Part shown: piece after piece, positions 18,919 through 51,879 of the stretch | Position numbering within the stretch: position 1 is the stretch's first letter | Layout of the letters: every line of letters starts with the position of its first letter | Assembly: GCA_949317995.1 (NCBI GenBank) | Contig: OX439041.1 | Span: 48,159,269 to 48,223,268, forward strand | Direction: 5' to 3' | DNA: 64,000 bases | Origin: Acholoe squamosa | Lineage: Eukaryota; Annelida; Polychaeta; Phyllodocida; Polynoidae | Translations under genes and position numbers: made by a program | Notes under the pieces: model-generated | Seen by the model: the letters and a program-made list of their open reading frames with translations, nothing else | Database searches by the model: none | Told to the model about the DNA's origin: nothing

Positions 18919-19448
18919 TAATGACAGATTTATGCTGTCATGTTTATAACAAACAAACAAAAATCGTTATGCAGGCCCTGAGCCTGCTGTGACAGCGTCA
19001 CACTGAGAATTTTTGTCCAGATTCTTCATGAAGGGCCAACAGCACGTTGTACAATTCAGACTAAGTGTATTGCAAGATGTGAGGCTACATGTGTATTACA
19101 AATCTCCAGCAGCAGTATGCACTTTTCAAACACATGCACTACGGTGAAGAGAGACTTCCAGAGGCTGTCAGTAGGGTTCCCGTGTAACTTCAGACTACTG
19201 GGTACTTGGGCTGCAGAAAAAGTGCAAAAGGGGGGGGGGGGTGTTGCATTGAAATAGTGGATTTGTGAGATAAAAACATATTTCCAACCATTTCCGTAAA
19301 GATGAACTTTCCTTGAGATCTGGAAAAAAATGCTCCTCCTTGTAGAAATTCTTAAATTTGAGATGATTGCCAAATAGCTATACAACCTTTACATAAGCAT
19401 ACTATTGTCTTGACGGTTTGTAATGTTTCTCTCCTTTATATCTTCCAG

Positions 19449-19546
19449 ACACAACGCCATTTTTACGAACAGTACAGAAGACTCTGTCCGACCAGCTGTT
19501 AAAGTTACCAGAGAAGTACTCCGTCACTGCCCTTCTAGACACATGG
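19449..19546 (+). CDS. Candidate exon B2 of unknown host gene
   Basis: A 98-bp segment follows a long pyrimidine tract ending tatcttccag and precedes the donor gtaagg. The frame entered with two bases is open for 32 codons and exits in phase 0; it encodes an amphipathic helix-rich peptide (LRTVQKTLSDQLLKLPEKYS). Another frame is also open. The 42-bp minisatellite begins 26 bases into the presumed intron. The family is not recognised. It joins in phase to 21099-21149. Confidence 0.4.
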
Positions 19547-19572
19547 GTAAGGCATCTTTTCACACATACAGT

Positions 19573-19992
19573 TATAGTGAGGAAGTCAGTCCTCATCATC
19601 CAGGGTGTATGGATTATAGTGAGGAAGTCAGTCCTCATCATCCAGGGTGTATGGATTATAGTGAGGAAGTCAGTCCTCATCATCCAGGGTGTATGGATTA
19701 TAGTGAGGAAGTCAGTCCTCATCATCCAGGGTGTATGGATTATAGTGAGGAAGTCAGTCCTCATTGTCCAGGGTGTATGGAGTATAGTGAGGAAGTCAGT
19801 CCTCATCATCCAGGGTGTATGGATTATAGTGAGGAAGTCAGTCCTCATCATCCAGGCTGTATGGATTATAGTGAGGAAGTCAGTCCTCATCATCCAGGGT
19901 GTATGGATTATAGTGAGGAAGTCAGTCCTCATCATCCAGGGTGTATGGATTATAGTGAGGAAGTCAGTCCTCATCATCCAGGGTGTATGGAT
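19573..19992. repeat. 42-bp minisatellite, exactly 10 copies
   Basis: Ten 42-bp units (tatagtgaggaagtcag...) span 420 bp with very few differences. 42 is divisible by 3, so three frames stay open and produce 14-residue peptide repeats on both strands (ORFs up to 219 codons). The array starts just after a strong splice donor, so I interpret it as intronic, not as a repeat protein. Confidence 0.95.
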
Positions 19993-21098
19993 AATGGACA
20001 AACTGATTTTCCTAACGGTAATTCATGGGCATGGGTGAAGGGCCATAGAACTACGCAATGGCAGGACATGAACGTGAGTTAAGGGCCAAAACTAGTCAAT
20101 ACTAACCCATTGACATGGGTCAAGAGCCGCAGAACTATTCGACATTATGACATGTGCATGGGTGGAGAGACAAAGAAGTCAAGCTTAGTTGCTGGCCATT
20201 AAGAACACCTTAAATCTATATTTCCAGAGAGACTTAGGAAATATTCATTTTGTTATTCAGTAATCCCTCTAGCTCTACTAATAAAAGTGCTAATACACCT
20301 AAAGGTGGCGGTTGAGGTTTTAGTTGTTTTGTTGTTTTTTGTTGTTGTTTTTTTAAGTTACTACTGTCGTTCAGAATACTATGAATTCCTCTAAAGTTGG
20401 ACCAGAGTCAAACTATGGGTCGTTGGAGGCATACCTTCCAGTTTCCAAAGTCTCATTTAGAGATAAATGAACATAGTTCATAGTAAATTTCTCAGGTGAC
20501 CTCAGATCAAGGTACACTTGAATACTGAATACTAGTAAGAGATAGAATATGGGATCTAGAACCAATAAAACCTTTTAAAACAACTGCCGCCCCCATTCGT
20601 TAACACATCAGACATGTGTGGGCGTATTTTAAAACTAAGATATACCATCCAAGGCTGATAAAACTTGAGGAAGTTGAGTTGGCCGTTGTACAGAACTGGT
20701 TCAAAGACAGCAGTATGTCAGAGTTAACCAGGTGTATGGGGCACAGACGGCTGAGCTAACCTTTGTTAACTACTGAGGTCACTGTGCTTACTTACAACTC
20801 CCAACTACTGGAGGTACACTGGTGTCAAAATACACGTATGAGTTGCTCATTAAATAGCTCCTTGTGGCATACATATGTGGACTTATGGTGAAATACACAT
20901 CGTACATTACATCAATGTGGCAGCGGCATCACACAATGGGCACTATGGGCCCGGGGTTGAAATTGTTGTGAGAGATAGCAAGGAGCAGTTGGTTATATAA
21001 AGGCGTATTCCATAAATGTCCTTGAATAGGGGCGAAATTGCGAGTTGATATGGACTTTTCATCGATTTACTTCAATATATATATATTTTTTTTTTCAG

Positions 21099-28158: not shown

Positions 28159-28706
28159 TTGTACAGGTCAAGATGGAAAGACTATCATGAGTTTTGTGCT
28201 TTCTTTGACATTCAGCCACTTCCATGTACCCAAGAGAGTGTTTGTTTATATGTGGCATACCTAGCCCGGAGGCTTAAGTATTCCAGCATTGAACAGTATG
28301 TAAGTGCCTTGTCGTATCTGCAGCACCTGCATGGATATACTTCAGTCAATGCTACCAACTTCATGGTCAAACGGACCATGTTAGGAGCCAAACGTAAGCT
28401 GGGTTATTCACCTGTACAGACTATGCCTTTGGAGCCTACACATCTCCAATTCTACAAGCATCTGGACATGTCAGTGTCCTTTCAACTGTGTTGGTGGACT
28501 GCATCCATTACTGCCTTCCACAGCCTTTTACACAAGGCACATGTAACAAGTTCCTCTCAAGCTATATGTCTACAAGGTGTATCATTCAATGATTGGGGAC
28601 TACTCCTGACCTTGCCTAGCACAAAGACAATTCAATATGGTTAGCGGGTGCTTGAAATTCCATTCAGCATCAAACAGGATCACCATTATGTGTCACCTCC
28701 TATGTT
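28159..28706 (+). pseudogene. YR retrotransposon tyrosine recombinase, degenerate
   Basis: The core-binding domain is clear (WKDYHEFCAFFDIQPLP, YVAYLARRLKYSSIEQYVSA). The catalytic domain begins but the expected LLRKSN-type motif around the first catalytic arginine reads LLHKAH, and a TAG follows TKTIQYG. This enzyme would integrate the circular cDNA by site-specific recombination. The loss of the arginine motif and the stop show inactivity. The gene is then cut by the short retroposon at 28707-28882. Confidence 0.75.
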
Positions 28707-39846: not shown

Positions 39847-40986
39847 TCAGATGTTAATTGGTACTTTAGATGTATAGGCTTTCACAACAATATCTGCGGG
39901 TTGCAGCGTCGGCTTTATCTCCATACTCTTAAATGCAGCATTATCAATGATGTTTATACCTGCTCCCGTGTCAAGAATGAATGGGATCCTGGTACCATCA
40001 ACTTCTGCCATCACCTTCAGCATGTTGCTGTTCTTAGAAGTTGTAGGCTTCAGTGTGTAGATGTACTTTTCACCAGTATCATCATTTGTATCCTTCCTGA
40101 CCTCGTTCACACGTGCCTGTTTCTTCTTTTTCTTCTTCACTTCTGTCTTTGTCTTAGGCTTTTCTTCTTTAGAAGGTGAAGTACAGCATCGTGCAAAATG
40201 ATCAAGGTTACCACACTTTCTACAAGTCTTCCCTTTGGCAGGACACCATCGTTGATCATGCCGGAAATTGCAAGAACTACATCGTGTCAGTTGTCCCTTG
40301 TCTGCAGGTTTAGGTTTCTGAGACTCTCGTTGAGATGACTTCTGTTGCTGTTTAAACTTGAGCCTATGTACAGATGTCTCACCTCGCTCAATAGTACTAG
40401 ATTGTTGCTCAGACATCTCCATAGATCTACCTTTGTCTAAAATCTGGTCAAGTGTCCAGTTCTTGTTCTCCAGAGCGTCTTTCCTCAACTTGGAAGATCT
40501 ACAGTGTTGAATCAGTTCACGCTTTAAATCAGTGAATTCACAGTACTTGGCAAGCTTCCTCAATTCAGTGACATACATATCCAGAGTCTCACCTGGTTCC
40601 TGCTCTCTCATGCGGAACTCATAGATGCCAAACTCAGGATTCACTTGAGGTATGAAATAGTCATTGAGAGCATTACGCACTACTGTATAAGCATTCTGAT
40701 TGTTTGCAGCCACAGGATCTGGGATAGTCAGTGTATCACAAATGTCATCAACCTCCTCACCTGCATAGTGTAGCATTAGAGACTTCTTCCTTGCAGCATC
40801 TGTTATTGTCAGACCAACCATCAGCTGTTCAAAGCGTCGTACCCACTTTTTCCACCTGACCCCGACTGTGTCTCTGTCTGACAGATCAAAAGGTGGAAAG
40901 TGTGGCAGAGCCTCAGCCATGATTGCCTTCAAGCACAGATTCTCAGGGTTACTTACAGGATCAACAGTTAATGTCAGTAAAGTCAC
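39847..40986 (-). CDS. Gypsy Gag with protease, interrupted at its end by a stop
   Basis: 379 codons; the likely true start is the second methionine at 40920 (MAEALPHFPPFDLSD), which matches Gypsy Gag N-termini. Residues about 40-200 form a capsid-like helical region with PGETLDMYVTELRKLAKYC. Two zinc knuckles follow (CSSCNFRHDQRWC at about 236-248 and CRKCGNLDHFARCC at about 255-268), then a lysine-rich linker. The retropepsin active site FILDTGAGINIID lies at about 336-348 (catalytic D339). Gag would package element RNA. Because it is intact up to the protease, it could in principle support particle assembly. Confidence 0.88.
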   Translation of the reverse strand: MTLLTLTVDPVSNPENLCLKAIMAEALPHFPPFDLSDRDTVGVRWKKWVRRFEQLMVGLTITDAARKKSLMLHYAGEEVDDICDTLTIPDPVAANNQNAYTVVRNALNDYFIPQVNPEFGIYEFRMREQEPGETLDMYVTELRKLAKYCEFTDLKRELIQHCRSSKLRKDALENKNWTLDQILDKGRSMEMSEQQSSTIERGETSVHRLKFKQQQKSSQRESQKPKPADKGQLTRCSSCNFRHDQRWCPAKGKTCRKCGNLDHFARCCTSPSKEEKPKTKTEVKKKKKKQARVNEVRKDTNDDTGEKYIYTLKPTTSKNSNMLKVMAEVDGTRIPFILDTGAGINIIDNAAFKSMEIKPTLQPADIVVKAYTSKVPINI

Positions 40987-44227: not shown

Positions 44228-44655
44228 TATATCTATTCTTAGAATTTTTTCTTTATTTTTGTATGTTTGTAATAAATGAGGCAGGAACAGTATGTCACAT
44301 TTGCCTGCCTCCAAACCCTCATGAATACTCTTGTCTGGTTCATATACTAATTAAATAGAATCCAAAAGGCAGTATTCTTGAGTCCTCAAAAAAACTTTTG
44401 AGTTTTTTTTGTGAAACCACTTATAATTTCTTTGAAAGACTTGATATGCTTAAAGTACACATCATTGCCATTTTGTGTCCTACCTGTGAATACTGTCTGA
44501 AAAAACAGTGCCACATAATTATTCTTGGAAATCTTTTCACCTTTTGGTAGCATTTCTCTTATGTTCATGGGCCTATAACTTAGCCAGAAATGCATCTGAC
44601 AGTTAGAAAGTAAGTTGAGTTGGAAGTCAATGAAATTCTCCATCAAATTGACACA

Positions 44656-45744
44656 AGCGGAAGAGTCGAACGCACCCAGCCCAGCAGTATCACTCCCAGC
44701 AGACAACTGTTTTTTGGAATTCTATAGCCCTATTAGGGAGCACAAACTTCGCTGAACAAACGGACAAGTACTAAGGAACCTGTATATGTGAAGTCCCTCT
44801 CAAATTCTTCAGTAAATTACACAGAAACAAACCATATTTAGGTCGCACATGGACAGAACTGAGCGATAATTGAAGCAAGTAGCAACAGGAAGTGCATGAC
44901 GAAAACCGTCTTCCCGCTCGGCCCATATAAACAATAACAACATGGCATAAGCGTAGCCTTACTCAATAGACTTTCACGATCATTTTGGCGTTTGTTGGGC
45001 CTCTCTATGACAATTTTGAGCTGTACAATATATTTAAGGAGTGACATGCCTGGGCAGATATAAATGCTGCTAAACAGGCAGTTGGTAGTCGAGATATCAT
45101 AGAGCCTTGCTGTGGTATCTGACTTGAGTGTGCTGGGTGTGTTCGAGACACTACTACTACAGTTAGTAACAGTAACTCTACAACTTTAAAGTATACAACT
45201 ACTCTTTAAGCAACTACACTGTGGGAAACCCCCATAAACTATATATTGTTAGAATCATGAGATCAAGCCTGATTCAATGCACTTGATAATTAGTGGGTCT
45301 GACGCACAGGGATTGGAACCGCTCTACGTGCTCAGCAACAAAACTGTCAGGCAGACAGTCAGATCGTGAAAATTCAAAGTTTGCCAGAAAGTAGACGCTC
45401 CAAGGGTTCTAGATCCAAAAGAATTTTTCAAATTGGGTGGTTCTAACTGGTCCATATTGAATGTCTAACTGAATGCACCCAAAGGTATGGAGGCAGGCTC
45501 TATGTAACATGTAGTGGCCATACATGGCTCCATGTCCATGTGTTCTCAATTGTCGGTGCTGTATCATCAACTTAACCACATATGAAATATGAGTATATAA
45601 CCCAGTGAACTATTGCACAGGTCGATTTCCTATTAGCTGTCCCTCCCCAGCCCTATTGTGACTAAATACCCAACACTGGTCAAGGTTTAGTCAGTTGGTA
45701 GGGGTCAGACCTTGTGCATCTTTAGACTTCGCCCAGGTTTTAAT
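44656..45744 (+). promoter_or_regulatory. Putative LINE 5' UTR
   Basis: About 1.1 kb of non-coding sequence between the proposed left target duplication and the ORF1 start. It would contain the internal promoter, but no specific motif was identified. If the duplication is wrong, the element starts elsewhere in this stretch. Confidence 0.4.
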
Positions 45745-47301
45745 ATGTCAACATCAAATGTCAGTGATCAATGTGGGGGTGCTGTATCTATTCCAACCGG
45801 TGCACCACTGGTCACAATGGAGAGCAACTCATCTGGGGAAGGGGAGGCCCCCATGGACTGTAAAAACACTGACAAAGCAGCAAAAAAAAGAATGCCTGAC
45901 GAAGCAGGACTGTCTGATGACGATACTGATAGAAAACTGAGGGTCACCGAAAAAGCCCACCAACACCAGTCTAACAGCGGGGTAGCTGGTACTGCTAGCA
46001 AACCTACACTAACCCAGAACATCAACCCTGAGGAGCTGAGTTTACTCACGCTGGCTAGAACTTTAGCAAGGATCGAGGAACGGCTTATCAGAGTCGACAA
46101 AACTGGTCAAACTACTGCAAACGACATCAAGGAATTCAACGATAACCTTTCAAGTGTGGCGGAGGATGTAGAAATCAACAAAGGCGACATCCAGGTCCTG
46201 AAGGAGCAAGTCGTTAAGCTCCAGAAGGATCTAACGGAAACAAAGAACGAACTATCAGAGACGAAAACCAAGTTGGAGGAAACTGAGATACAGGTTAAAG
46301 GAAATAAGGCTCACCTTGAGAGAAATGAGGACAACACCATCAAACAGGAAGCGTACTCAAGAAAATTGAACTTACTGCTGGATGGCCTCCCAGAGGGTGA
46401 AAACGAAACATCTGAAAGTTTGAGGGCAGAGTTGGGAAGAATCTTTTGGCGCCATGCAAAAATGGAGAGTAGCTGCATTGACGTGGCTCATCGCATTACG
46501 AGGAACCCTGGACAAGCTACAAGGCCTGTACTAATAAGGCTGAAATTCCTGGATGCAAGAAATAAATTGTGGGGGCGAAGAGCACAGTTTAGGGACTACA
46601 AAGTAAACGGTGCCCAACTCTGGCTCAGTGAGGATATCCCCACCAAACTGAAAGGGGAACTAGCTAGAGTTAAAAAGACGTATTGGGTGGCCAAGAACCA
46701 TGGCACTTACAGAGAGGTGAGAATGTCGGGCACATCCCTGTACCTCGATGGCAAGCTCTACAACAAAGAAAACTGGGACACTCTTCCTGAATATCTGGGA
46801 CCAGAAGCTCTGGCTACACTAGAGAATGAGAACACTGTAGTTTTCTTTACCAAGGCCTCCCCTTTTAGCAACCACTACCCTGCTACATTTAAGATTGGAG
46901 ACAAGACCTACACATCGATGGAGAAATACCTCGCCATACAAAGGTGCATTATCGCAAGGCGTGAAGACTTAGAGAGACAGGCATGGCGACTGGACGTGCC
47001 TGCCAAGCTAAAGGGCATACTACACAAGTGCAAGGAAGAGCACAAGGACGAATGGATCGCTAAATCCAAGTCCATTGCAATGGAAGGGATTAGGGCTAAG
47101 GTCCAACAAAATCCACTCATTCGCCAGCGTCTCCTTAGCACAGGAAATAAGGTTATTGGTGAAGCCTCAAAAGACGCTGTATGGGGCATAGGGATGAGAC
47201 TGACTGATAAGAACGCCTTAAACCAAGAGCTATGGTCTGGAAAAAACCTGCTTGGTAAAATTCTTCAAGAGGTGCGCCAAGAATTTGAGGATACTGCCTA
47301 A
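45745..47301 (+). CDS. LINE ORF1 protein: coiled coil, RRM-like, C-terminal NADAR domain
   Basis: The frame is open from 45712; I prefer the second ATG at 45745 (MSTSNVSDQ), giving 518 residues. Numbering here is from 45712. Residues 1-110 are polar and disordered. About 139-216 is a coiled coil with heptad leucines. About 217-355 matches the L1 ORF1 RRM-like and C-terminal region (RKLNLLLDGLPEG, DVAHRITRNPG, RPVLIRLKF), expected to bind element RNA as a trimer. About 374-525 is a NADAR domain: FFTKASPFSNHYPATFK, TSMEKYL, LLSTGNKVIGEASKDAVWGI and GKNLLGKILQEVRQEF. E404, D488, W491 and the GKNLLG motif are present, so catalysis looks possible. NADAR proteins (YbiA, DarT-associated NADAR) cleave N-glycosidic bonds or remove ADP-ribose from guanine. 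Ordinary L1 ORF1p lacks this domain. Confidence 0.88.
   Translation: MSTSNVSDQCGGAVSIPTGAPLVTMESNSSGEGEAPMDCKNTDKAAKKRMPDEAGLSDDDTDRKLRVTEKAHQHQSNSGVAGTASKPTLTQNINPEELSLLTLARTLARIEERLIRVDKTGQTTANDIKEFNDNLSSVAEDVEINKGDIQVLKEQVVKLQKDLTETKNELSETKTKLEETEIQVKGNKAHLERNEDNTIKQEAYSRKLNLLLDGLPEGENETSESLRAELGRIFWRHAKMESSCIDVAHRITRNPGQATRPVLIRLKFLDARNKLWGRRAQFRDYKVNGAQLWLSEDIPTKLKGELARVKKTYWVAKNHGTYREVRMSGTSLYLDGKLYNKENWDTLPEYLGPEALATLENENTVVFFTKASPFSNHYPATFKIGDKTYTSMEKYLAIQRCIIARREDLERQAWRLDVPAKLKGILHKCKEEHKDEWIAKSKSIAMEGIRAKVQQNPLIRQRLLSTGNKVIGEASKDAVWGIGMRLTDKNALNQELWSGKNLLGKILQEVRQEFEDTA
46831..47286 (+). other. NADAR domain segment of ORF1
   Basis: A C-terminal 152 residues uninterrupted by stops or frameshifts. 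The order of motifs (PFSN-YP, Y-S-E-Y, AKVQQNP, LL-TG, EAS-D-WGIG, GKNLLG) follows the family from end to end. The family is recognised from motif order; a profile search was not possible. Confidence 0.85.
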
Positions 47302-47797
47302 CTTACTCGGTCCCAAAATGTGTGCATGTATGTGTATATGTGTGTATTGATGGTAATGACTGCAACAACTGGGTATAACCATGTGGTGCTCAAGATTCAT
47401 TCAACTTAGGGATGGATCACAATAGTCTTAAATAAAATACCCAACAAAAATGAACATATTATCAAACAGCTCTCTCAGTTGCATGAGACGCATGGTCTAT
47501 GGAGCAACTAAATGTGGATGCTTTACTTTTCTCTTCTTGTGTGTTTATGTTTATCTGTTATTTGTGTGCGCAAGATTATGTACATCATTTTGGTAGTTGT
47601 GTTATTGTATTCTGTTTCTATGAGGTGCCAACAGAACATTAGCAAGGCGTATATGATGATATATGAGTATTGTACCCTTACAGCGTGGCTGTGGATGATT
47701 GTAAGACAACTGAACCTAAAAAGTAGAGTTATTGATACCCCACAAATTCTGTGTAAAACCAAACATAATATGACCCCTATTCTGAATCCAAAAGGCT
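47302..47797 (+). other. LINE inter-ORF spacer
   Basis: 496 bp between ORF1 and ORF2, longer than in mammalian L1. It contains short ORFs of no recognisable kind. How ORF2 would be translated is unknown; reinitiation or an internal start are possibilities. Confidence 0.7.
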
Positions 47798-50700
47798 ATG
47801 ACCAATAACACAAGAGTGATTAACCTATGCTCTTTTAATGTTAATGGCATAAGGGTGAGAGATAAGCGAAGAGCTATTTTCAAGAAGCTAAAGGATGAAA
47901 GTTATAATATTATCTTCCTTCAGGAAACCCACTGCACAGCAGAAGTAGAAAAGATTTGGAAGGCTGAGTGGGGTGGTGATATGATATGTGCAAATGGCAG
48001 CTCATCATCCAAAGGTGTAGCCATACTCTTCAATAGAAATTACCCTTACAAGTGCCTAGAAAAGACACTGGATGCCAATGGGAGGTATATTATATTACAC
48101 ATCGAGGTTCAGGGAGTGGATTATGTCTTATGCAATATTTATGCTCCAACACAAAACTATGAAGCAGACCAGATGGCTGTATTAGATGAAATATCAGATA
48201 GATTAAAAGGCTATGAAGTCGAAAACCTTCTCCTTGGAGGTGACTTTAATGAAACCCCGGACCCATATATAGACAGAAGGGCAACTAATAGTACAAGGGC
48301 AGCTAATAAGCAGTATAGGAAGCAAATATACAGTCTACAAGATACTCGCAGCTTAGTGGATATATGGAGAGTTAGACACCCTAATTTACATAGATATTCT
48401 TTTCATAGGCAAGAGCAAGCATCCAGGATAGATTTCTGGCTAGTGTCTGAGCATTTGACAGGCTTTGTTCATAAAACAGATATCGGTCCTGGAACGCTAT
48501 CTGACCACAGTAAGGTAACACTGGGAATCTCCAGTGCTGACCAGGACAGAGGCCCAAATGTGTGGAAGTTTAATAATACCCTTCTCTCAGATAAAGACTA
48601 TGTGAATCAACTTAAGACTATGCTTGGAAAATGTAAGATAGAATACCAGGATCTGGCACCCAATGCGAAGTGGGAGATTCTGAAGTATGAGATAAGGAAA
48701 TTTTCAATTAATTACAGCAAAAAGAAGGCAGAGTCTAAAAAGGTAGAGAGGGAGTTAACAAACAGTCTGGGCAAATTGACTGCAGCCTTTGATGAGGGCC
48801 ATGATGTAATTGATGAAATGGAAAGTGTTAAGAGAGACCTAAAAGATATTGAATTAAAGACAGCTAGAGCCATCATGTTTAGGTCAAAAGCGAATTGGTC
48901 CCAGGTAGGTGAACGACCAACCAAATACTTTTTGAATTTAGAAAAAAAGAATTTTATGGACAAACTTATTACTCAACTGAAAGATCAAAATGGGCATATA
49001 GTCACTGAATGCAAAGATATCCTTAGCGTACAGAAGCAATTCTACAGAAATCTATACTCAGATAGCTATAGAGAGTTAGATGATATTGATGACCGTTGTC
49101 CCTTCATAGATACAAACAACTTAGCTGTCTTGTCTGACAAGCAGAGAGAGATGATAGAGAGACCCTTATCAAAGTCAGATTTTCTCAACAGTCTTAAATC
49201 CTTAAAGAATGGGAAGTGCCCAGGCACTGATGGGCTAAGTGCGGAGTTTTATAAGTTCTTCTGGACTGATATTGGGGATGATGTTAGTCAAAGTCTACTC
49301 TATGCCACGGAAACGGGCAGCTTGAGCCAAGAACAGAAACGTGGCATTATAACCCTTATCCCTAAAAAGGAAAAAGATAGACTCCAGCTAGGAAACTGGA
49401 GGCCGATCAGCCTGCTGAATACAGACTATAAGATCTACACCAAGGCCCTGGCAGAAAGGATAAAACCCCACCTCCCTAATATTATAAGCTCAGATCAATC
49501 TGGATTTGTTAGGTCAAGGTATATAGGAACAAGTATTCGCACAGTTGAAGATATATTAGCATACACCACAAAGTTAAGTCGCCCTGGTATTCTGATGGCG
49601 GTTGATTTTGATAAAGCATTTGATAAGATAAGGTGGGAGTTTATCTTTAAGGCACTTGAAAGGTTTGGATTTGGGGAAAAATACATCTCATGGGTCAGGA
49701 TATTATATAAAGACATTGTTGCCTGTGTCATAAATAATGGGTACACAAGTGACTGGTTTGAACTTGCATGCGGAACCAGACAGGGATGCTGTCTATCGCC
49801 TTTTTTGTTTGTTATTGCTGTAAAACTGTTAGCTCATAATGTATGCATGAATGTAGATATTAAAGGTATAAGACTTGGTACTAGAGAAGTAAAGATATGT
49901 CAATATGCTGATGATACCACTTGTTTTATCGAATCAGCAGCAGCTCTACATCACCTGCTGGACTGTTTGAGAAGGTTTAGGAGGTACTCTGGTCTGAAGG
50001 TGAATAGATATAAGACACAATATCTTGCACTTGGTGGTATTGACACTAGTCAGACCAGATTGGAGGGTCTTGCATGGAGCGAAAGATTGATTGTCCTGGG
50101 CATCTCTGTAGCACCGAATAGGACAGAAGCCCAAAATTACTCGTGGAACTTTGAACCCCAGATACAGAAAATCACCAACATAAGTGATGATTGGAGGCAC
50201 CGCAACATCTCACTCAAAGGTAAAACTATCATCATAAACAGCCTAATGCTACCATGTGTGATGTTCCCGGCCTCAGTCACCACTACACCATCTAGAGCAA
50301 TAGATGAAGTCAATAGAATTGTTGACAAATTCCTATGGGGCTCCAACAGGAACAAGGTAGCCAGGGCACGTGTTCAGGCACAGACTAAGCATGGTGGACT
50401 TGCAGTAGGCAATTTTAAAACGAAAATCATTGTATCTAACATAAACTGGGTCAAAAGGTTCTGTTGGGATACCACCATGGTTCCATGTGATTTTATTAAG
50501 TTATTTCTCCATGAAGTGTCTGACTTGAAACTGTTCATTCATACAAAATCAGATATTAACATACCACGAGAAGCAAGCCCATTCTATTATCAGGTTCTCA
50601 AGGACTGGCATGAATTCCAAAATGTCTCACTAGTAAGAGAAACGGAGGTCCGTAATGAAGTATTGTGGAAAAATAAGTTTATTACTATCAATAATACACC

Positions 50701-51067
50701 AATATTTTGGAGGTCGTGGAAGAAGGCTGGTATTGTCAGGGTTAAAGATTTACTGGATAATGGAAGTTTTATGTCAGACACTCAAATTTCTCAAAGGTAT
50801 GGTGTTCAGTGTAACTTTCTTCAGGCTCTACAAATCCGAAAAAGTATACCAGGTAGCTGGAGAGCTAACATATCCAGTGACGAAATTCAAAGGCCAAATG
50901 ACTGTATTTGGGTCATTGATAATACCCCAGATGTAGTTAATCTCTTTTCAACATCAAGCAAGGAATTGTATTGGATAGTTCTATACCGTCACTCACAACA
51001 AATGCCAAGGAATGAAATGAAATGGGCAAAAGTCTTTCCTGAGGTCCAATTTACAAAGGTTCCATAG
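47798..51067 (+). CDS. LINE ORF2: AP-type endonuclease and reverse transcriptase
   Basis: 1089 codons before an amber stop. Endonuclease, residues about 7-243: SFNVNG (N14), LQETH (E43), YAPT, LLGGDFN (D149, N151), RIDFWLVS (D212) and SDH (D236, H237), so all catalytic positions are present. Linker about 250-460. RT about 465-740: GKCPGTDGLSAEF, NWRPISLLNTDYKI, ILMAVDFDKAFD, RQGCCLSPFLF and the catalytic CQYADDTT (YADD 703-706). It nicks the target and primes cDNA synthesis there. The start ATG overlaps no other ORF. Motifs place it in the L1/Tx1 group by eye. Confidence 0.93.
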   Translation: MTNNTRVINLCSFNVNGIRVRDKRRAIFKKLKDESYNIIFLQETHCTAEVEKIWKAEWGGDMICANGSSSSKGVAILFNRNYPYKCLEKTLDANGRYIILHIEVQGVDYVLCNIYAPTQNYEADQMAVLDEISDRLKGYEVENLLLGGDFNETPDPYIDRRATNSTRAANKQYRKQIYSLQDTRSLVDIWRVRHPNLHRYSFHRQEQASRIDFWLVSEHLTGFVHKTDIGPGTLSDHSKVTLGISSADQDRGPNVWKFNNTLLSDKDYVNQLKTMLGKCKIEYQDLAPNAKWEILKYEIRKFSINYSKKKAESKKVERELTNSLGKLTAAFDEGHDVIDEMESVKRDLKDIELKTARAIMFRSKANWSQVGERPTKYFLNLEKKNFMDKLITQLKDQNGHIVTECKDILSVQKQFYRNLYSDSYRELDDIDDRCPFIDTNNLAVLSDKQREMIERPLSKSDFLNSLKSLKNGKCPGTDGLSAEFYKFFWTDIGDDVSQSLLYATETGSLSQEQKRGIITLIPKKEKDRLQLGNWRPISLLNTDYKIYTKALAERIKPHLPNIISSDQSGFVRSRYIGTSIRTVEDILAYTTKLSRPGILMAVDFDKAFDKIRWEFIFKALERFGFGEKYISWVRILYKDIVACVINNGYTSDWFELACGTRQGCCLSPFLFVIAVKLLAHNVCMNVDIKGIRLGTREVKICQYADDTTCFIESAAALHHLLDCLRRFRRYSGLKVNRYKTQYLALGGIDTSQTRLEGLAWSERLIVLGISVAPNRTEAQNYSWNFEPQIQKITNISDDWRHRNISLKGKTIIINSLMLPCVMFPASVTTTPSRAIDEVNRIVDKFLWGSNRNKVARARVQAQTKHGGLAVGNFKTKIIVSNINWVKRFCWDTTMVPCDFIKLFLHEVSDLKLFIHTKSDINIPREASPFYYQVLKDWHEFQNVSLVRETEVRNEVLWKNKFITINNTPIFWRSWKKAGIVRVKDLLDNGSFMSDTQISQRYGVQCNFLQALQIRKSIPGSWRANISSDEIQRPNDCIWVIDNTPDVVNLFSTSSKELYWIVLYRHSQQMPRNEMKWAKVFPEVQFTKVP

Positions 51068-51571
51068 TATGACATATATATGTGTCCATACCAAGTGAGT
51101 AGGGAAACAAAGTTACAATCATTTCAATATAAGGTACTCCATAAAATACTAGCTTGTAACAAATACTTGTTCGATATACGTGCAAAGGAAAACCCAGAAT
51201 GTGTATATTGTGATGGTAAGACTGACACTCTTGATCACTTCCTTGTGAAATGCCCCCCAGTAGCCTACTTCTGGAAGTCAGTCATACGATGGATAAACAC
51301 TGTTGCTAAGATTGATACAGGGAATTTAGATGAGCATGAATTGATACTTGGATTATGTAGAAAAATTCCAAATGGTGATATCATCAACAATGTAATACTT
51401 AGAACCAGGTTTTACATTTATAGGCAGCGTTTGTATCACAAGTGCCATCTTGATCTGTTGCAATGGATAGGAGAGTTTAAACACTCTCTTCTCTCAGAAC
51501 AATTTATATGCGGTCTGGAGAACAAGCAAAAGAGGTTTAGGAAATGGGAGGCTATTTTGGACTCAATGTAA
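51065..51571 (+). pseudogene. LINE ORF2 C-terminal part after an in-frame amber codon
   Basis: TAG at 51065-51067 interrupts ORF2. The same frame is then open to TAA/stop at 51571 with no frameshift, beginning YDIYMCPYQVSRETKLQSFQ, which resembles the region preceding the zinc knuckle in L1-like ORF2. CVYCDGKTDTLDHFLVKC is a CX2C...HX4C-type knuckle (zf-RVT-like). A single point mutation therefore separates it from the rest; readthrough is possible but unproven. Confidence 0.85.
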
Positions 51572-51870
51572 CCGCTATGCATACACTGAAAGAACCCTAG
51601 TATCTCACTCATAGCATACTTCCTAGATAGGGGAACGGAGCTGCGAAAACTGTATCGATGTAGAGATATATCAGTATCTAGTCTCTATCGCTAGTCATAT
51701 AGAACACATCTATTGTCATACTCACTATAATAATGCGCTATGTATTGTCCTGTGGTGTCCTGTGGTGTTTATATAACAAAATATCAAAAAATGTAGCGAA
51801 GACCTGTATAGCTATAGACATTTTTTCTTTTTTAAATAAAAAATGAGCGCTGCTCTATATAAAAAAAAAA
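51572..51870 (+). other. LINE 3' UTR and A-rich tail
   Basis: About 290 bp, ending taaataaaaaatgagcgctg, a short TATA segment and A10-A11. The AATAAA near 51834 can serve as poly(A) signal. Confidence 0.75.
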
Positions 51871-51879
51871 ATTGACACA

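Follow-up and report, generated by a model that had tools for sequence, protein, structure and literature searches.

The window analysed here is a stretch of 64,000 nucleotides of the genome of the polychaete Acholoe squamosa (positions 48159269-48223268 of contig OX439041.1, part of a 1.48-Gb genome), and it holds a whole LINE insertion whose first open reading frame ends in a NADAR domain. The features of this insertion, numbered from the first letter of the window, are the following:

44646..44655, plus strand: 5' target-site duplication, AATTGACACA
44656..51869, plus strand: whole LINE insertion of about 7.2 kb between the target-site duplications, delimited by shared start, poly-A and flanks
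44666..45744, plus strand: 5' untranslated region, first bases TCGAACGCACCC
45745..47301, plus strand: ORF1, encoding the 518-aa ORF1p with C-terminal NADAR
46027..46359, plus strand: coiled coil, residues 95-205 (AlphaFold model)
46369..46632, plus strand: RRM, residues 209-296 (AlphaFold model and fold matches)
46642..46800, plus strand: L1 ORF1p-type C-terminal domain (CTD), residues 300-352 (AlphaFold model and fold match)
46810..47298, plus strand: NADAR domain, residues 356-518 (Pfam, AlphaFold model and fold matches)
46921..46923, plus strand: codon of E393, equivalent to E43 of 8bau (alignment to 8bau)
47161..47163, plus strand: codon of E473, equivalent to E125 of 8bau (alignment to 8bau)
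47798..51571, plus strand: ORF2, with APE endonuclease, reverse transcriptase and zf-RVT (profile and frame evidence)
51572..51869, plus strand: 3' untranslated region and poly-A
51870..51879, plus strand: 3' target-site duplication, AATTGACACA, abutting the poly-A

Elsewhere in the window, a gag-like ORF on the minus strand (39847-40986) gave weak matches to aspartyl protease and zinc-knuckle models, all below the curated cut-offs, and is perhaps the remnant of an LTR retroelement. The ORF at 28159-28644 (plus strand) has a weak, below-cut-off match to the N-terminal domain of phage-type integrases and perhaps derives from a tyrosine-recombinase element. At 19402-20082 repetitive frames are open on both strands, and this stretch is by eye a minisatellite.

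The element is a recently mobile LINE of the L1 superfamily. It has an L1-type ORF2, an ORF1p built of coiled coil, RRM and CTD, a poly-A and target-site duplications, and residues 1-875 of ORF2 align to human L1 ORF2p with an E-value of 8.9e-104. The window ORF2 is split by an in-frame TAG (51065-51067); several other copies have an open ORF2 frame of 1262 aa. BLAST matches start at base 44679 in 22 of 29 other copies, the start motif TCGAACG lies 13 bases before this base (TCGAACGCACCC at 44666 in the window copy), and a pattern search recovered this common 5' start in 21 of 30 copies. The fixed start is separated from the duplication by a largely purine stretch of about 6-10 bases, variable among copies (44656-44665 in the window). 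About 215 bases within the 5' untranslated region of the window copy (L001:1012-1226) are missing from six of the 29 other copies (L004, L005, L006, L008, L012 and L018), and their absence is possibly the mark of a subfamily. Thirteen 3' ends were fetched or lie in the window, seven of them readable; judged by eye, a clear target-site duplication of about 10-15 bases follows the poly-A in five of the seven (the window among them), L006 has a shorter one and for L003 none was seen. No fixed target sequence was seen by eye in the 5' flanks (50 bases each) of 21 copies. Many Tx1 families, not all, insert into a fixed target sequence.

ORF1p is a LINE RNA-binding protein in which a NADAR enzyme domain follows the RRM and CTD; an earlier, sequence-only reading of this DNA had proposed from motifs a LINE ORF1 protein with a C-terminal NADAR. 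The Pfam NADAR model (PF08719) matches residues 370-514 with 94.1 bits against a curated cut-off of 35.1, which gives the NADAR part a significant profile match. The AlphaFold model and its structure matches place a NADAR fold in the C-terminal part of the protein; fold matches were obtained to both NADAR and L1 ORF1p, and the one to the NADAR structure 8bau lies on residues outside the stretch matched to L1 ORF1p. Human LINE-1 ORF1p is not known to have a NADAR domain, and in this it differs from the ORF1p of the window.

Other copies of this LINE carry the domain as well. With this and the profile match, both outcomes that the sequence-only reading had named as refuting it were found not to apply. 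Compared with its own genome, ORF1 gave at least 86 matches, many of them full-length with 96-99% identity and without stops (83 of 3310 candidates scored). To avoid a bias towards the NADAR domain, copies were also picked through the ORF2 endonuclease, which gave at least 151 matches (150 of 246 candidates scored). The 88 ORF2 rows kept start at or before residue 6 and extend as far as residue 229, with an identity of 89% or more, and the NADAR domain was sought on the same strand within 3.5 kb upstream of each. A NADAR family match was found in 59 of them; in four further copies the ORF1 match runs up to residue 518, and in seven it stops inside the domain, at residue 456-507. When the DNA of the remaining 18 was compared, four had the whole domain, ten had a part of it, and in four the 551 bases retrieved contained nothing of the element. 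This amounts to 67 whole domains (matched over their length, stops allowed), 17 partial and 4 none, and no copy with an intact RRM-CTD and a cleanly absent NADAR was seen among the 88.

The NADAR domain was under purifying selection while the LINE family was copying. Thirty ORF1s were fetched, of which 29 are in register and 25 have no stop. Variants present in at least two copies were called shared and those of a single copy private; the shared ones have mostly arisen in source elements. As variant numbers are small and copies non-independent, the following ratios are evidence and not a measured rate: in NADAR the shared variants are 2N:12S (p=7e-7 against the number of sites) and the private ones 33N:16S (p=0.08), a difference between the two classes (Fisher p=0.0006) which has no counterpart in the rest of ORF1 pooled (shared 14:16 vs private 61:56, p=0.68). 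In the RRM (2:5, p=0.007) and the N-terminus (4:6, p=0.014), too, shared variants fall under the neutral level, and therefore the constraint is not special to NADAR; in the coil they do not (8:5, p=0.17). Pairwise pN/pS is lowest in NADAR (0.167), followed by the RRM (0.201), the N-terminus (0.324) and the coil (0.449).

NADAR-bearing ORF1s are present in unlike LINE families of this one genome. The Pfam NADAR model returned 3224 first-look candidates, a loose count, and all of the 150 that were scored pass the cut-off, many being copies of the window's family. The top two matches among these 150 (L043 and L044) are apparently stand-alone host NADAR ORFs; among the hits of L044 that bear an organism name, the best is from Ridgeia piscesae (66% identity). 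Coil-RRM-NADAR ORF1s of unlike families were found at L048, L050, L055, L056 and L079-L081. The ORF2s that were read were grouped by pairwise similarity, which yielded, beside the window's L1 type, a second group (L074 and L075 with L082, L077, L078, L083 and L084) whose members are 25-45% similar to each other and reach at most 82 bits to the window ORF2. L073, which scores 44-125 bits against the second group and 72 against the window, is probably a third group. The scores against human L1 ORF2p are 352 bits for the window, 95 for L073 and, at best, 37 for L084. The RRM-CTD parts of the L1-type and second-group ORF1s are homologous when aligned alone (hhalign probability 99.07), and so are their NADAR parts (99.78).

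Some of these relatives have additional coding sequences. L067:301-2529 (plus strand) encodes a 743-aa ORF1 with a central NADAR followed by C-terminal SGNH-like motifs, recognized by eye and without a Pfam match, and beside it L073 is a 1167-aa EN-RT ORF2 unlike L1. One or two extra ORFs lie between ORF1 and ORF2 in the second-group loci L074 (375-1124, plus strand), L076 (515-1312 and 1434-2162, plus strand) and L077 (1868-2629 and 2619-3260, minus strand). For one of these five the model (pLDDT 85) gave structural matches to GDSL/SGNH esterases (E=2.1e-06 for the best, TM of about 0.5-0.6, 10% identity), and a sub-threshold GDSL match was obtained for the extra ORF of L074. Their alignment does not clearly show the usual nucleophile serine, so that esterase activity is doubtful.

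Concerning the origin of the domain, the tree separates the LINE NADARs from 17 of the 18 stand-alone ones, with a support of 85/98 that is below the tree's mark for a firm branch, and the 18th, YbiA, is placed on a long branch among the LINE domains. The possibility that the LINE NADAR is a copy of a present-day host NADAR gene was rejected on account of this separate grouping. Topology tests allow both the 15 LINE domains held as one clade (p-AU 0.425) and the five L1-type domains placed with the stand-alone NADARs (p-AU 0.405); a single capture followed by ORF1 swaps, or several captures, may thus each explain the distribution. Such swapping between LINE lineages has been proposed for CR1 and L2 (PMC4120745). 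A wider protein search with a 12-sequence alignment returned only three relatives, all already known (7993 candidates scored).

The sequence-only reading had left open whether a LINE family of this kind was already described. It was, in one sentence: several Tx1 LINE ORF1s of Crassostrea gigas appear to hold a NADAR of the YbiA family, for which RNA processing was suggested (PMC12477816). These ORF1s join a LINE ORF1 protein to a NADAR like the element of the window, a likeness drawn from the description; that sentence rests on Repbase hits, and the accessible text reports neither their copy number nor any analysis of selection, fold or ORF2, and does not mention NADAR in other LINE lineages. 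The LTR retroelement of a brown alga with a NADAR is likewise retroelement-borne, but differs in being an LTR element with the NADAR in another position. The SGNH-esterase ORF1s of CR1 and L2 are also LINE proteins with a hydrolase-fold domain and a reportedly reticulate ORF1 evolution (PMC4120745, PMC3905857); they carry an esterase instead of a NADAR, and SGNH-fold ORFs occur in some of the NADAR-bearing relatives described above as well. In a literature search that covered few subscription papers, no further report of NADAR in transposons was found besides PMC12477816. The finding of a NADAR-bearing LINE is real and striking but partly known. What we did not find in print is the occurrence of NADAR over unlike ORF2 groups in one genome, its selection, its changed contacts and the adjoining SGNH-fold ORFs.

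The changed contacts were recognized by comparing 15 LINE NADARs with 18 comparison NADARs, 13 of which were gathered by a single search that used a host NADAR as query, at the 8bau positions named in section 12 of PMC11543638. E43, E125, K75 and W89 are kept in all 15 LINE NADARs. D130 is kept in 12 of 15 and W133 in 9 of 15, the six losses of W133 being all outside the window's L1-type group. At the K50 position 14 of the 15 have K or R, and P0003 has Q. R79, which contacts the pyrophosphate, is found in 0/15 LINE NADARs vs 18/18 comparison NADARs, and an aromatic residue at position 84, involved in adenine stacking, in 0/15 vs 17/18, the alignment around 79-84 being gappy. The NADARs of Phytophthora nicotianae (8bau) and E. 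coli YbiA (2b3w), which are outside transposon proteins, keep R79. In the window NADAR, R400 replaces K50, H427 replaces R79 and E432 replaces Y84, and hence it lacks the ADP-ribose contact set of 8bau (K50, R79, aromatic 84), although these contacts do not define the superfamily; R93 is missing too, as in most comparison NADARs. Among intact copies of the family E393, R400, E473 and W480 are invariant (25/25) and D477 varies once. With the catalytic side kept and the ligand side changed, these residues speak for an enzyme and weaken ADP-ribose as its substrate.

L1 ORF1p binds its RNA. By coating the RNA of the element, ORF1p would place the NADAR active site on this RNA or on the first-strand cDNA, where it would strip bases of ribosyl adducts; the likeliest of these is ADP-ribose on the amino group of guanine, set there by a host ADP-ribosyltransferase. 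Their removal would unblock reverse transcription, so that the element would carry its own counter-defence or template repair. To the reading that the NADAR of ORF1p clears such adducts, most likely guanine ADP-ribose, from element RNA or cDNA we give a probability of about 0.35.

Removal of ADP-ribose from DNA guanines by NADARs has been reported (PMC11543638) and, among the hydrolase families tested, they alone are reported to reverse ADP-ribosylation of the guanosine base on RNA, the strongest eraser being the E. coli C7 NADAR, whose strength the authors link to nucleic-acid binding (PMC11833690). Guanine-N2 ADP-ribosylating activity has been reported in six edible clams (PMC11209040), and positive-strand RNA viruses of invertebrates carry a NADAR (PMC9503650). 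The K95R mutant of the C7 NADAR, equivalent to a K-to-R change at K50, still hydrolyses guanine-ADPr in vitro but does not rescue cells from DarT1 (PMC11543638), and the window family has Arg at the position equivalent to K95. The loss of the aromatic contact and the failure of this mutant in cells lower the ADP-ribose counter-defence reading slightly. Searches of the genome with the Scabin-like model PF22596 (0 matches, no control detected either) and the DarT model PF14487 (0 matches, 1 of 14 controls detected) do not show the absence of such transferases. The counter-defence suggested by the sequence-only reading fits the reported NADAR activities and the selection on the domain; against it speak the loss of R79 and aromatic 84 and the fact that no guanine ADP-ribosyltransferase was found.

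Only slightly less probable is that the domain is an N-glycosidase with a changed pocket for another substrate, be it a nucleotide or ribosyl metabolite, as for YbiA, or another base adduct. The catalytic glutamates are still kept while R79 and the aromatic 84 are lost in every LINE NADAR compared, and YbiA cleaves riboflavin intermediates (cited in PMC11543638). A free metabolite is nevertheless hard to square with the fusion to an RNA-coating protein, and E. coli YbiA itself is reported to deADP-ribosylate guanosine RNA in vitro, if more weakly (PMC11833690). Rather improbable is a domain that binds without catalysis, either reading ADP-ribosylated or otherwise modified nucleic acid or protein or serving RNP assembly or nuclear targeting: the ligand contacts are changed, W133 is lost in some LINE NADARs and an extra C-terminal domain could merely add nucleic-acid contacts, but the invariance of E43 and E125 in all LINE NADARs compared and in the intact copies argues against it. 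A role in processing the element RNA, for instance at its 5' end or in spliced-leader trans-splicing, is quite improbable; RNA processing was proposed for retrotransposon NADARs in the Ectocarpus paper (PMC12477816), and SL1 trans-splicing depends on SNA-3, a protein that has three NADAR domains and requires its NADAR residues, yet it is reported as nematode-specific (PMC9303266). Finally, a chance one-copy fusion or decaying passenger, to which only the near-neutral private variants would point and these are expected after insertion, is hardly credible, being ruled against by the whole or partial domain in most ORF2-picked copies, by the strongly purified shared variants and by the homologous ORF1-NADARs of divergent families.

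Removal of ribosyl base adducts from element nucleic acid, the reading that we prefer, may have a wider form. Erasers of ADP-ribose are found in viruses and phages, presumably as a counter to ADP-ribosylation by the host. NADAR could be a module shared by unlike LINE lineages of one genome, selected since the host base-ADP-ribosylates retroelement RNA or cDNA or sets a related ribosyl adduct on it, a generalization that we regard as speculative and doubtful. If it is true, the eraser on the side of the element would reveal an animal defence against transposons that modifies nucleic acid, of which we found no description. A retrotransposon delivering an eraser with its RNA-coating protein, in unlike LINE lineages and under selection, would point to ADP-ribosylation of nucleic acid, or a like modification, as a pressure on transposons. 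The changed ligand pocket may moreover reveal a new NADAR substrate, and a defined domain with defined residues is now available for testing.
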